A stretch of DNA of 34,528 nt from Paracoccaceae bacterium. GTDB lineage: Bacteria > Pseudomonadota > Alphaproteobacteria > Rhodobacterales > Rhodobacteraceae. The notes below the pieces were generated by a model that was given only the letters and a program-made list of their open reading frames with translations, was not told where the DNA came from and searched no databases. The translations under genes were made by a program, and so were the position numbers. Below, piece after piece: positions 1 to 34,250 of the stretch. Position 1 is the stretch's first letter. The number at the start of each line of letters is the position of its first letter. The stretch is from positions 1-34,528 of the forward strand of contig JABXIA010000285.1 of assembly GCA_013373325.1 (NCBI GenBank), given 5' to 3'.

Positions 1-446
1 CGCTCATCCGGGTAAAGCGGCGTCAGGATGTCAAAGGCGATCTTGTGGCGGGCCTTTTCAGGCTCCTCGAAGTTGATCTTGGTGACATTTGTCAGCGCGA
101 AATAGCGCTCAGTCTCCAGCGGCGCCTTGATCTGGCCTTCTACGGTATCACCGGTGCGCAGCGAATACTGGCGGATCATTTCAGGGGAGACATAAATGTC
201 ATCCGGGCCCGGCAAATAGTTTGCCTCAGGAGAGCGGAGAAAGCCAAAGCCGTCCTGCAGCACTTCCAGCACGCCGTCGCCGCCAATATCCCAGCCTTCA
301 TCCGCGCGTTCCCGCAGGATCTGGAACATCATCTCGCCCTTGCGCATGGTCGAGGCGTTTTCGATCTCCAGCTCTTCGGCCATCGCCAGCAGCGCTTTGG
401 GGCTCTTCGCCTTGAGATCGGACAGATTCAGGGATTGCACGGTCAT
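1..446 (-). CDS. rho: Transcription termination factor Rho, N-terminal part (3' end beyond window)
   Basis: Rho is the hexameric RNA-dependent ATPase that ends transcription of untranslated RNA. Only the first 148 codons are in the window. The translation begins [20 protein letters not shown], the usual N-terminal helical Rho domain, and continues into the cold-shock-like primary RNA-binding domain (for example [20 protein letters not shown] and later [18 protein letters not shown]), typical of alphaproteobacterial Rho. The ATPase domain lies outside. The ATG at 446 matches the family start. It reads away from the proposed origin together with hemJ, with a 173-nt leader that carries its own promoter candidate. 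Rho usually controls its own synthesis through its leader; this is family knowledge, not something seen here. Identification is very secure. Confidence 0.96.
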
Positions 447-619: not shown

Positions 620-1075
620 TTAGAATTTGAAGATCACCGAGACCACGATAACCACCATGAGCACGGTTGGCACCTCATTCATCATCCTGAACTGCCGTCC
701 TGTCAGTACATTCCGGCATTCTTTGAAATCCCGGTAGCGAAACAGCAACCAGTGATGGAACCAGGTCATACCGATCACAGATGCGCCTTTGGTCCAAGGC
801 CAGACGTTGCTCCAGTCGATAACGCCGGGTGTCAGCACAATGAACAGTCCTGCTACCCAGGAAACGTACATGGCTGGGCGCATGATGATACGGAGAAGCT
901 TTTCTTCCATGGTCAGGAAGATCGGCACTGCTTCCTGAATCTTCTCTGCCTGTTCCACATGGTACACGAACAAACGTGGCAAATAGAAGAGACCTGCCAT
1001 CCAGCTAAGCACGGCCATGATGTGCAGTGACTTGGCATATGGGTAGAGCGTGAACATCAGGTCGCTCAGGTCCAT
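620..1075 (-). CDS. hemJ: Protoporphyrinogen IX oxidase HemJ
   Basis: HemJ is a small inner-membrane haem enzyme that oxidises protoporphyrinogen IX to protoporphyrin IX, the penultimate step of haem synthesis. The 151-residue product has about four membrane segments. The first carries the conserved motif with His18 and the run LSWMAGLFYLPRLFVYH; an EEKLLRIIMRPAM stretch follows near residue 76. Length fits the family (about 140-150). I chose the ATG at 1075 because GGGGAGA lies just upstream; a GTG at 1105 would add ten unconserved residues. It transcribes leftward from the proposed origin toward rho. In Caulobacter another haem gene, hemE, borders the origin, so a haem gene here fits that pattern. 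Confidence 0.93.
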   Translation of the reverse strand: MDLSDLMFTLYPYAKSLHIMAVLSWMAGLFYLPRLFVYHVEQAEKIQEAVPIFLTMEEKLLRIIMRPAMYVSWVAGLFIVLTPGVIDWSNVWPWTKGASVIGMTWFHHWLLFRYRDFKECRNVLTGRQFRMMNEVPTVLMVVIVVSVIFKF

Positions 1076-1107
1076 GGGTTGTTCTCCCCGGTCAGATCGG
1101 ACCACCC

Positions 1108-1147
1108 TAATAATTAAAGAAATATTAGAAGGATGATGTTTTTGTAG
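1108..1147. other. AT-rich candidate DNA unwinding element
   Basis: Forty bases with 32 A/T, eight G and no C, in a clearly GC-rich genome. It sits at the hemJ side of the DnaA-box cluster, the usual place for a duplex unwinding element, and it probably also overlaps the hemJ promoter. Confidence 0.5.
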
Positions 1148-1268
1148 TGTGCATGGATTCCAGTGGATAAGTGAATCTTCCTCCGCTTATCCCCAGCAAG
1201 GATAAGATTCCAGCCTGCATGGGACAGGAGTCGTGGAAATTTCCTTAACGCCTGTAAAATATGGACTG

Positions 1269-1283
1269 TTAAGGAACGGTTTA
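1269..1283 (+). promoter_or_regulatory. CtrA-box-like site in the candidate origin
   Basis: TTAA-N7-TTTA matches the CtrA box TTAA-N7-TTAA at seven of eight positions. Other candidates in the same gap are TTAA-N7-TTAG at 1114-1128 and the half-site TTAACCAC at 1421-1428. In Caulobacter, phosphorylated CtrA blocks initiation by binding the origin. Binding here is inference. Confidence 0.4.
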
Positions 1284-1485
1284 CCTTTCTTGCCTTGGGG
1301 ATAACAGCGGGATGAACCGGGGAGAGCCGGAATATCCACGATCTCAAAGTTATCCTGACTCACAAAGGACGACTCAGCCGGCAGAATTCTGAGATTTGCG
1401 TCAACCCCTGGAGTCTTTACTTAACCACGGAAAACCATACAAAACGTCCTGAAACGATCTGCGTCTTTCCCACGGGGTTTTCCAC

Positions 1486-2085
1486 ATGACTGCCCACATT
1501 GTGCTGGCTTCCGGTTCCGAAATCAGGGCGCATCTACTGCGTCAGGCAGGCATCAAGATTGAACGCGATGTGCCGCGTCTGGATGAAGATGCGATCAAAA
1601 TGGCATTGCTGGCCGAACAGGCTCCGCCGCGCGACATTGCCGATGCGCTGGCAGAGGCGAAGGCACGCAAGATAAGCGGCAGGCACCCCGGGAGACTGGT
1701 GCTGGGTTGTGATCAGGTTCTTGGTTTTGAGGGAAACCTCCTCTCCAAACCTGACAATCCCAAGGTTGCGCTGAGCCAGTTGAAGGACATGCGGGGCAAG
1801 CGTCACATGCTCCTGTCCGCAGCCGTGATATACAGAGACGGCGAACCCATTTGGCGCCATGTCGGGCAAGTGCGGCTGGTCATGCGGAAATCTTCTGATG
1901 CTTACCTCGAAGATTATGTTTCCCGGAACTGGGACAGTATCCGCCACGCGGTCGGTGCTTACAAGCTGGAGGAAGAGGGCGTGCGGTTGTTTGCCAGCAT
2001 AGAGGGCAGCTACTTTAATGTCTTGGGATTACCGCTGATGGAGCTTATCAGTTACTTGGGACTTCAGGGGGTGATCAAGCAATGA
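1486..2085 (+). CDS. maf: Maf-family nucleoside triphosphate pyrophosphatase
   Basis: Maf proteins hydrolyse non-canonical or modified nucleoside triphosphates to monophosphates and pyrophosphate. The 199-residue product has the N-terminal LASGSEIRAHLL motif (family LASxSPRRxxLL), the GCDQVL segment at 74-79 with the catalytic Asp76, and the C-terminal IEGSYFNVLGLPL motif near 172-184. The DQ pair after the catalytic region resembles the YceF (7-methyl-GTP) branch rather than the DT of the dTTP/UTP branch; this subtype call is tentative. Its ATG overlaps the last DnaA-box-like 9-mer of the proposed origin. It overlaps aroE by four bases, so it is probably cotranscribed with aroE, coaE and dnaQ. 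Confidence 0.93.
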   Translation: MTAHIVLASGSEIRAHLLRQAGIKIERDVPRLDEDAIKMALLAEQAPPRDIADALAEAKARKISGRHPGRLVLGCDQVLGFEGNLLSKPDNPKVALSQLKDMRGKRHMLLSAAVIYRDGEPIWRHVGQVRLVMRKSSDAYLEDYVSRNWDSIRHAVGAYKLEEEGVRLFASIEGSYFNVLGLPLMELISYLGLQGVIKQ

Positions 2086-31393: not shown

Positions 31394-32356
31394 TTATTCC
31401 TCTTTTAATGGTCTTTTAAGCAAATGTGCCGCTGCCTCGCTGATCGTCAAGCGCTGATCTACTAAATTGGTTACCGTGAGAGTGACCGGCATATCCAAGG
31501 CCATCCGCTGGGCCTGCTCCGCCACGGCCCGCGCGGTGGCTGCTCCTTCCACGGTGATGCTGGGGTCAAATTCCTCGCCGCGGCCAATGGACAGGCCCAA
31601 CCGGTAATTGCGGGACAAGTCAGAAGTGCAGGTCAGCGCGAGGTCGCCAAAGCCTGAAAGCCCGGCCAGGGTTTCCGCCTTGGCACCGCTTGCCAGCGCC
31701 ATGCGCTGCATCTCCGCATAGCCCCGTGTCATCAGCGCGGCACGGGCACTGTCACCAAGTCCCGCACCGATGACTGCGCCGCAGGCAATTGCCATCACAT
31801 TCTTCAGCGCGCCGCCGATTTCTGCGCCGACGGTGTCTGTGGTCCGGTACAGGCGCAGATTGGCTGTGGTCAGCTGTTTTTGCAGGGACTTGCACAGATC
31901 TGCGTCGCCGCAGGCCAGCGTCAGCGCAGTTGGCAGCCCCCGTGCGATGTCAGCTGCAAAGCTTGGCCCGGTCAGCAGCGCGGCCTTCGCATCTGGCAGA
32001 ACCTCCTGGATAACGGCAACCGGGCCTAGACCAGTCTCCAGCTCAATCCCCTTGCAGCAGGCAACAAGTGTCTTTCCTGACAGCTGCACACCGTACTCCT
32101 CCAGCACGCCGCGCAGCGTCTGCATCGGCACAGCCAGGAGCAGCACTTCGGACTGGCTGGCCTTGGTGATATCCGCGGTGACAGTGAGGTTTTCCGGCAG
32201 TGCCACACCTGGCAGGCGGGTGCCGTTGCGGCGGCTGTCCTGCATCGCCTGGGCCTTCATTGCGTTGCGCGCCCACAGGGTCACCGGCCCGTTGCCAGCC
32301 AGCGAGATTGCCAGGGCGGTGCCAAATGCGCCTGATCCCAATACCGAAATGCTCAT
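31394..32356 (-). CDS. gpsA: NAD(P)-dependent glycerol-3-phosphate dehydrogenase GpsA
   Basis: GpsA reduces dihydroxyacetone phosphate to sn-glycerol 3-phosphate for phospholipid synthesis. The 320-residue protein has the NAD fold GSGAFG at 7-12, [11 protein letters not shown] near 72, CKGIE near 106, the [14 protein letters not shown] motif near 140, and the catalytic lysine in [14 protein letters not shown] near 185. The C-terminal domain has [23 protein letters not shown] split near 233. It overlaps tsaD by four bases and adjoins yciI. Its last codons use TTA and AAA, unusual for this GC-rich genome, and form a TTAA-N7-TTAA repeat. Confidence 0.96.
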
Positions 32357-33450
32357 GCTTTGGCTCCCTTGCGGCCTGATCCGATCAATGCCGGGCTGCT
32401 TTGATCCAGCGGCCAGCGGGGACGGGCGGTCAGATCCAGCCCGTCGCGCGCGCCCGCTTTGAACCGCTCAAGGCCCGCATAGGCGATCATTGCCGCGTTG
32501 TCGGTGCACAGCCGCAGCGGCGGAGCGGTGAAGGCGGTGCCTGCCTCTGCACAAACCGTCTCTAAAGCTGCCCGGATGGCGGTATTTGCTGCCACACCGC
32601 CAGCCACGGCAATGGTCGGCTGCGCTGGCTGCTCTTCCAGATACTGACGGATGGCGCGGCGGGTTTTCTCCGCCAAGGTATCAACCACCGCTGCCTGAAA
32701 TCCTGCACACAGGTCGGCGCGGTCCTGGCGGGCCAAGCCGCCCTTTTCCGCAACGATCTGATCGCGCATCCGCATCAGCGCGGTTTTCAGGCCGGAGAAG
32801 GACAGGTTGCAATCGGGCCGGTCCAGCAAGGGCCGGGGAAAGTGGAACCGCTTGGGCTCGCCCTTTTCCGCCTCAGTCTGCACCGACGGCCCGCCGGGTT
32901 GCGGCAGGCCCAGCAGGCGGGCGGTTTTGTCAAAGGCCTCGCCCGGTGCGTCGTCAATAGTTCCGCCCAAACGGGTGAAATCCTCAGGACCGCGCACCAG
33001 CAGGTACTGGCAGTGGCCGCCGGAAACCAGCAGCATCAGATAGGGATAGGCGATCCCGTCCGTCAGCCGCGGCGTCAGCGCGTGTCCCGCCAGATGGTTT
33101 ACCCCGATCAGCGGAAGACCGGTTGCGGCGGCAATCCCCTTGGCGCACATCACGCCGGACATCACGCCGCCGATCAGCCCCGGGCCGGCGGTGACGGCTA
33201 CCACATCCAAGTCCTTCAGGCTCAGCCCGGCTTCTGCCAGTGCATCGCGGACGCAGATGTCCAGCTTTTCAGCGTGGGCGCGAGCGGCAATTTCCGGCAC
33301 CACGCCGCCAAAGGCACTGTGCAGCTCGGTCTGGCCGAACACGATCGAGGACAGAACCTCGGGCTGCTCACCCTCTGCCTGCCGTACCACGGCGGCGGCG
33401 GTGTCGTCACAGCTGCTCTCCAGCCCCAGGATTGTCAGGGTCTTTGTCAT
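32353..33450 (-). CDS. tsaD: tRNA N6-adenosine threonylcarbamoyltransferase TsaD
   Basis: TsaD transfers the threonylcarbamoyl group to A37 of ANN-decoding tRNAs, with TsaB and TsaE. The 365-residue ASKHA-fold protein begins [17 protein letters not shown]. Metal-binding His119 and His123 sit in NHLAGHAL, and the family signature ESSCDD and [12 protein letters not shown] (near 48-59) are intact. Further parts are [12 protein letters not shown] near 139 and [13 protein letters not shown] near 283. It is divergent from hemD over 74 bases and heads the gpsA-yciI-EVE-DUF1761 series. Confidence 0.97.
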
Positions 33451-33524
33451 GGCCTTACCGTTGCATCAAACTGCCGCCGGGGCTACCACCGAAGCGGGGT
33501 GCAAACAATCCCGGGAGCCTTTGG

Positions 33525-34250
33525 ATGGTGCCATTGCTGATGACACGCCCGCTGGCAGCGGCAAAGCGGTTTGCCGCCAGCCTGCCAGCCGAAGCGCTTG
33601 CCGGGCTGCAGGTAATCTATACTCCGCTGATGGAGATTCAGCCGGTTCAGGCACCGGTCAGAACGCAGGGTATAAAAGGGGTGATCTTTACCTCTGCCAA
33701 CGGCGTTGAGGCCGCTTCACGTGAAACCACAGTGCGGCTGCCTGCCTATTGTGTAGGGGAACGCACGGCGCAGACTGCCGCAGTACTGGGCTGGCAGGCT
33801 GAGGTTCTGGGGCAATGCGCCGAAGAACTGACGGCTGCCCTGCTGCAAAAGCGCCCCGAAGCACCGCTATTGCATTTGCGCGGCGCCCATGCGCGGGGCG
33901 CAATTGCGCAGCTTCTGACGGATGGCGGCCTCCCCTGCGGGGAGCAAATCGTGTATGATCAGGTGCTTTTGCCGCTGACGGAGGGGGCGCAGGCTGCGCT
34001 TGCTGCGCAAAACGGTGTGATCGTGCCGCTATTCTCACCCAGGACTGCGCGCCATTTTGCCAATCTGTGCGGGGACGCGTCGCATTTGCATTTGATTGCA
34101 CTGAGCGAGGCTGTGGCGGAACCGTTGAAAGGCTTGAATTACAAGGCTTTCAGAGTAAGTAAAGCCCCGGATGCACCGGCCATGGCGGAGGCTGTCCTTG
34201 ATGCCGCAGCGCAGCTGTCCCGGCTTGAGGGCAGGGGGCGTGCGGAGTAG
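33525..34250 (+). CDS. hemD: Uroporphyrinogen-III synthase HemD
   Basis: HemD closes hydroxymethylbilane with inversion of ring D, giving uroporphyrinogen III for haem, sirohaem, cobalamin and chlorophylls. The family is poorly conserved; visible features in the 241-residue protein are MTRPLAAAKRFA at the start, VIFTSANGVEAAS near 53, the YCVGERTAQTAAVLGW stretch near 75, LLHLRGAHARG near 113 and VVPLFSPRTARHFANL-type text near 166. I chose ATG 33525 with GGGAG eight bases upstream; GTG 33528 and ATG 33540 are alternatives. No hemC lies nearby. The next gene follows after 51 bases. Confidence 0.9.
   Translation: MVPLLMTRPLAAAKRFAASLPAEALAGLQVIYTPLMEIQPVQAPVRTQGIKGVIFTSANGVEAASRETTVRLPAYCVGERTAQTAAVLGWQAEVLGQCAEELTAALLQKRPEAPLLHLRGAHARGAIAQLLTDGGLPCGEQIVYDQVLLPLTEGAQAALAAQNGVIVPLFSPRTARHFANLCGDASHLHLIALSEAVAEPLKGLNYKAFRVSKAPDAPAMAEAVLDAAAQLSRLEGRGRAE

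Follow-up and report, generated by a model that had tools for sequence, protein, structure and literature searches.

The origin of Caulobacter crescentus, Cori, lies between hemE and a COG1806 gene and, in the available passages on it, combines an AT-rich segment and DnaA boxes with parS within about 8 kb (PMC1914354, PMC4468827, PMC6399470). Both hemE and maf have been named as oriC indicator genes in the part of the source at hand (PMC3794950), and excerpts on Hyphomonas place the marker-frequency maximum near hemE (PMC6650430). In Rhodobacter sphaeroides, OriC1 was located by cumulative GC skew with parABS as a marker, and the Ori and its DnaA boxes were verified with OriFinder, as far as the excerpted text reports (PMC6315104). 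The closest taxonomic precedent is a Rhodobacteraceae set of 101 strains, in which oriC was assigned from DnaA boxes, GC disparity, and the closeness of parAB, much as in the present analysis (PMC6699656). This set very probably contains, in many strains, the locus described here. The available passages of that source name neither flanking genes nor a conserved sequence block.

The window is the whole 34,528-nucleotide stretch of DNA that was analysed, namely contig C97 among the 409 of a draft assembly of 4.51 Mb (G000). Its Maf protein shares 87% and 89% identity with Maf of two Leisingera records (L112 and L116). A sequence-only reading of the window had proposed the gap between hemJ and maf as the replication origin. 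The left end of the window is organized as follows.

3 to 446, minus strand: rho, N-terminal part, at the contig edge, left of hemJ
620 to 1075, minus strand: hemJ, left flank, divergent from maf (NCBIfam TIGR00701), ATG at 1075
1076 to 1485, no strand: hemJ-maf intergenic gap, 410 bp, almost certainly oriC
1486 to 2085, plus strand: maf, right flank (TIGR00172), ATG at 1486, followed by aroE, coaE, and dnaQ

The gap 1076-1485 is, with near certainty, the chromosome replication origin (oriC) of this marine, Leisingera-like bacterium. The proposal is borne out by a cluster of DnaA boxes beyond chance, an AT-rich element, a skew switch together with parS and parAB in relatives, conservation within the family, and a single match to the sequence signature R1. 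The gene-free interval had been put at 410 bp, which is its exact length, and its G+C content is 47% against 61% for the window. The assignment of hemJ falls under the model cut-off (116 bits, cut-off 138), and that of maf is marginally above it (117.7 bits, cut-off 117.15). Divergent gene blocks had been described on either side; this is true of the immediate flanks, hemJ and maf, but not beyond them, where secB, hslU, addA, and addB lie on the minus strand. Between 8000 and 30000, hslU, addA, addB, a murU-like gene, an amgK-like gene, and regB are all on the minus strand and point toward the origin, and gpsA, tsaD, and hemD (uroporphyrinogen-III synthase) are clustered at 31394-34250, about 30-33 kb from it. 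Compared with Cori, hemJ replaces hemE on the AT-rich side, and maf adjoins the gap directly, with no intervening gene and no COG1806 gene on the box side. A further difference from Cori concerns CtrA: exact TTAA-N7-TTAA sites are absent from the gap of the window and present in just 6 of 46 family gaps, and are thus not conserved.

Within the gap, an AT-rich run on the hemJ side is followed by DnaA boxes extending to the start of maf. The nine-base box and the parS, CtrA, and IHF sites were scored against strings that are taken here to be their consensus sequences.

1108 to 1151, plus strand: C-free run, 44 bases, 77% A+T
1162 to 1170, minus strand: DnaA box 1, TTATCCACT, 8/9, 3′ end toward the conserved block; at least 7/9 in 38/46 loci
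1187 to 1195, plus strand: DnaA box 2, TTATCCCCA, 8/9; at least 7/9 in 35/46 loci
1200 to 1205, minus strand: extra TTATCC core (GGATAA on the plus strand), weakly conserved (0.58)
1296 to 1304, minus strand: DnaA box 3, TTATCCCCA, 8/9; at least 7/9 in 38/46 loci
1332 to 1340, plus strand: DnaA box 4, ATATCCACG, 7/9; at least 7/9 in 28/46 loci
1350 to 1358, plus strand: DnaA box 5, TTATCCTGA, 7/9; at least 7/9 in 19/46 loci
1421 to 1429, plus strand: 7/9 match TTAACCACG, mean column conservation 0.37
1478 to 1486, plus strand: DnaA box 6, TTTTCCACA, 8/9, last base shared with the maf ATG

The whole window holds six matches at 8/9, four of them inside the gap, the same four that had been counted from the sequence. 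In 5,000 dinucleotide shuffles of 1073-1490, none reached four (mean 0.12, maximum 3), and the TTATCC core, observed five times, averaged 0.33 with a maximum of 4. The count of 7/9 boxes taken alone showed no excess over the dinucleotide shuffles of this interval (p = 0.13). Two such boxes had been reported, whereas the count is three (1332-1340, 1350-1358, and 1421-1429); the last is unconserved and thus probably a chance match. The overlap of the outermost box with the maf start codon stands, as the box and the ATG have one base in common, and the C-free stretch, described as 40 bases with 80% AT, is essentially as measured. The DNA-unwinding element is likely to be the left portion of this stretch (1108-1130). 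An inverted repeat, TTCCTTAAC/GTTAAGGAA (1241-1249/1268-1276), was set aside for poor conservation (0.41 and 0.61). The gap also carries seven GANTC sites, presumably of CcrM type, between 1156 and 1411; their number ranges from 0 to 9 over the 46 loci and is zero in ten.

Conservation was assessed in 46 loci of the family, window included, which remained of 56 sequences after ten were dropped. Five had no usable gap, being either without a detected hemJ (L014, L026, L042, and L051) or without maf (L035), L032, L036, L040, and L041 were second copies of one genome, and L117 was dropped as not being a gap at all. Of 80 loci from one search, the six best (L112-L117) were taken. In L014, L026, L042, and L051, tblastn found no hemJ between rho and maf. 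Gap length in the 46 loci is 361-421 bp, over-counted by about 3 bp because gaps were cut from the second hemJ codon. The question of whether the boxes persist in close relatives, which the sequence-only reading had set as a check, is answered positively: at least two boxes at 8/9 occur in 45/46 gaps and at least three in 36/46, and 45/46 have, near hemJ, 30 nt or more in a row without any C. The maf-start end of the gap carries a box matching 8/9 or better in 43/46 loci, window included. Mean column conservation is 0.85 at 1129-1148, 0.81 in box 1, 0.83 in box 3, and 0.89 in box 6, compared with 0.50 in the remainder.

The position of the origin was also to be checked by GC skew. Since the genome itself is in 409 contigs and its skew cannot be read beyond the contig, skew was taken from relatives with contiguous DNA around maf, namely G190 of the same genus (400 kb), G161 (310 kb and 100 kb), G066 (200 kb), and G116 (200 kb). 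In all four, the best G-C change point within 90 kb either side falls within 0.9 kb of the gap midpoint (−320 bp in G190, −180 bp in G161, +299 bp in G066, and −877 bp in G116), in agreement with the proposed position. For G161 and G066, the cumulative skew bottoms out at the gap; its minimum is displaced by 31.5 kb in G190 (at 160.5 kb) and by 87.5 kb in G116, where skew to the right of the gap is near zero. The G190 minimum could be taken to mean that replication really begins at another place, some 30 kb away on the maf side or, on other grounds, at dnaA. This is very hard to credit. The G190 change point lies only 320 bp from the gap midpoint, and the first 30 kb on the maf side are almost skew-neutral in all four genomes, an effect that may be caused by genes running toward the gap, such as hslU, addA, addB, and regB in the window. 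Box density argues in the same direction, as the gap is the top-scoring 450-bp bin in the 400 kb of G190 (five boxes at 8/9), the 310 kb of G161 (four), and the 200 kb of G066 (four); elsewhere in the G190 stretch, no bin exceeds two. In the 200 kb of G116, the gap has two boxes at 8/9 and ties with one other bin, but has more TTATCC cores.

As for dnaA, the fine reading of G161 is weakly positive at 0-60 kb beside this gene, which favours an origin there, then negative at 80-190 kb, with the lasting switch at the gap, at 213 kb. In coarser samples of G161, skew is positive throughout 0-1.84 Mb and negative throughout 2.53-4.37 Mb; between these stretches, the sample at 2.07 Mb is negative and that at 2.30 Mb positive. 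In G227, dnaA (0.506 Mb) and maf (0.938 Mb) are 432 kb apart, and 20 samples show skew negative to 0.92 Mb, positive from 0.945 to 2.42 Mb, and negative again at 2.6 and 2.8 Mb. The coarse skew of G219 (20 samples of 20 kb) disagrees with an origin at maf: there are several sign changes, the sharpest at 1.8-1.98 Mb, and across maf (2.93 Mb) skew only moves from −0.018 to +0.122. The distance from dnaA to maf in this genome is 1.58 Mb, which, as with the separation in G227, counts against an origin at dnaA. The scrambled skew of G219 (C1) suggests large inversions.

Sites for chromosome partitioning accompany the origin. At least two parS-like sites (TGTTTCACGTGAAACA-like) were found in 27/27 genomes searched, and in 19/19 genomes measured the near pair is upstream of maf, at distances of 3.1-3.6 and 5.0-6.2 kb. 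Three genomes measured against R1 instead (G149, G224, and G088) have parS at 3.2 and 5.1 kb, and five of the 27 have no distance, because the sites are on another contig (G000) or no maf is listed (G085, G038, G079, and G141). Additional parS-like sites, a point against the assignment, occur in G100, G080, and G149, and in G100 and G149 include some that are hundreds of kb away or farther; those of G100 and G080 were excluded from the maf offsets. The pair of the source genome itself is on contig C117 with a spacing of 1,911 bp, identical to that in G190, where the gene order is rho, mnmE, mnmG, rsmG, parA, parB and both parS sites lie within the mnmE-rsmG stretch.

R1 is a sequence-only model of positions 1104-1198 (95 positions), built from the 46 sequences. 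At E-values up to 0.001, which are rough owing to a short calibration, it matches 198/246 family genomes once each, own genome included, and finds no match in the other 48, single-contig G085 and G038 among them. Training sequence is known to come from 41 of the matching genomes and could come from no more than 46, which leaves 200 others, of which at least 152 match. Wherever R1 and maf were both among the matches listed (121 genomes), R1 lies 247-344 bp upstream of maf and shares its strand. A second, partly overlapping sample, drawn by order yet consisting wholly of this family, gave R1 in 133/149 genomes. At the level of the class, R1 was found in 40 of 289 genomes, 35 of which belong to other families. 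Of these 35 matches, 27 have hemE 4-175 bp away, divergent and on the AT-rich side, and 25 have maf within 6 kb on the box side; 29, from 24 families, are at hemE and/or maf in the same orientation, a positional result independent of the E-values. The other six have neither nearby and, like the 48 unmatched family genomes, count against the assignment. A search with GATGATGNTTTTGTAGG, allowing one mismatch in 387 genomes of the class, was discarded. Of its 67 listed hits, spread over 61 genomes, two fall at the known origin (G000 and G170). Thirty loci, all outside the family, were inspected and taken as chance, since tblastn found none of maf, aroE, coaE, dnaQ, hemJ, and rho there and no more than a single DnaA box lay close by.

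The distribution of R1 bears on whether the gap is merely a two-way promoter region for hemJ and maf, in which the DnaA boxes would regulate transcription. The divergence of the flanking genes and the box abutting the maf ATG in 43/46 loci would fit such a role, yet the explanation is highly improbable given the skew change points at the gap and the parS sites nearby. Moreover, the four loci without a detected hemJ keep the R1 element upstream of maf (L014, L026, L042, and L051, of genomes G151, G061, G042, and G008), and R1 stands beside hemE in 27/35 matches of other families. The hemE gene of the source genome is on a different contig (C277), and hemE and maf are at least 140 kb apart in 18 relatives with both on one contig. 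Since R1 matches lie at hemE or maf outside the family while hemE is far off within it, the gap is, on this sequence comparison, the same origin by descent as the Caulobacter-type hemE-flanked origins, with its left neighbour changed from hemE to hemJ. This comparison is drawn from other genomes of the class, Caulobacter itself not being among them.

One part of the gap, between the AT-rich stretch and the first box, is conserved to the same degree as the best boxes.

1127 to 1149, plus strand: conserved block, consensus AAAAGGATGATGnTTTTGTAGGG, with boxes 6 and 3 among the best-conserved parts of the gap
1148 to 1161, plus strand: spacer from the conserved block to box 1, 14 nt, first 4 nt 66% G+C across the 46 loci

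The block has the form GATGATG-N-TTTTGTAG, and GGATGATGnTTTTGTAGG stands between the A-rich segment and box 1. Read outward from box 1, its core (1132-1147) runs GAT GTT TTT GTA GTA, then G(G/A)A. From 1147 to 1132, the first base of successive triplets is G in 41, 44, 15, 46, 45, and 40 of the 46 loci. The first triplet is 3′-GAT-5′ in 36/46; its middle base is A in 39/46, and that of the next four is mostly T. The counts for the triplet phase are 194/322 against 8/322 and 30/276, figures to be read with the phase having been picked after viewing the alignment and with the 46 sequences being related, so that the counts are not independent. Runs of WWG exceed dinucleotide shuffles at p < 0.05 in only 10/46 sequences. 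When offsets of 0-30 were scanned, with ties broken toward 13, a box scoring 7/9 or better and pointing its 3′ end at the triplets was found 13-14 nt from the block in 38/46 loci, at 3-4 nt in seven, and nowhere in one. The idea of a second, degenerate DnaA box occupying the proximal slot was rejected as too weak (7/38 at 5/9 or better, against 3.4 expected). A literature search by title and abstract start returned no description of the block, a scope that leaves room for publication elsewhere.

In the basal unwinding system (BUS) of Bacillus subtilis (PMC8287927, PMC10721633), a DnaA box is paired with a run of triplets, the DnaA-trios, set 0-16 nt from it. The box has its 3′ end toward the triplet run on the opposite strand, as is the case for box 1 and the block. 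The likeness extends to the spacer, 13 bp being the commonest spacer of BUS with DnaA-trios in the passages at hand (PMC8287927) and 13-14 nt that of the block, and to the first triplet, 3′-GAT-5′. Unlike BUS as these passages present it, most block triplets have a middle T (or G) rather than A, and canonical runs of 3′-[GA]A[TA]-5′ are not enriched, the longest exceeding shuffles in 2/46 and 3/46 sequences in two tests. The middle base is contacted in B. subtilis by Asn187 of DnaA, and a middle T in a trio weakens the B. subtilis origin, according to the excerpts available (PMC10721633). When DnaA of G190 was aligned to that of B. subtilis, Asn187 was replaced by Tyr and Arg202 by Lys, with Glu183 and Glu228 kept. 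The same stretch of G161 DnaA, compared by eye, has the same residues, making two DnaA proteins read altogether. The B. subtilis numbering was taken from the alignment and agrees with the residues named in the available text (PMC10721633). Weak DnaA-family matches were also seen in G066 and G012 (15 each, those of G066 all of one size); these are probably ATPases of the kind putatively named IstB-like, from insertion sequences.

It is conceivable, though rather doubtful, that the block is a deviant DnaA-trio array, with 3′-G-T-A-5′ triplets after one canonical 3′-GAT-5′ and a matching change in DnaA (Asn187 to Tyr). Chances are even that the block is instead a binding site for a nucleoid protein such as GapR or IHF, or else part of the promoter of the neighbouring heme gene, and not a single-strand site for DnaA, a reading that concerns the block only. 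The lack of enrichment of canonical trio runs is consistent with such a site, and GapR, as described in the passages available, has an affinity for AT-rich DNA, with peaks near Cori in Caulobacter (PMC6399470). Against it, a box of at least 7/9 stands at one of the two preferred spacings in 45/46 loci, and the R1 element keeps its position where hemJ is undetected or hemE is present instead. IHF in particular is disfavoured by its exact consensus occurring in only 7/46 gaps. A model of the 23-nt block alone (R2) gave 108 hits at E up to 10 and fell inside the R1 element in 6/29 non-family genomes, which suggests that part of the block may exist beyond the family, though it was not found in most genomes.

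Opening of the origin is inferred to proceed as follows. DnaA-ATP would load on boxes 2-6, and the resulting DnaA complex would reach box 1, the 3′ end of which faces the AT-rich side. From box 1, a DnaA filament would extend across the triplet block onto one strand and open the AT-rich DNA beside hemJ. The helicase would then be loaded at the opened DNA, and forks would leave in both directions.

The origin itself is expected and ordinary for such a bacterium; what merits experimental attention is the conserved block next to the unwinding element. In most sampled Rhodobacteraceae (198/246), fragmented drafts included, the 95-nt signature identifies the origin with a single match per genome, and in 24 further families of the class it picks out sites beside hemE or maf. 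A deviant trio at the block would fit the suspicion of the BUS authors, voiced in the available part of their paper, that there may be trios without a middle adenine (PMC8287927). If this assignment is true, the code by which the origin is opened would have shifted together with its reader, DnaA, in this branch of the Alphaproteobacteria.
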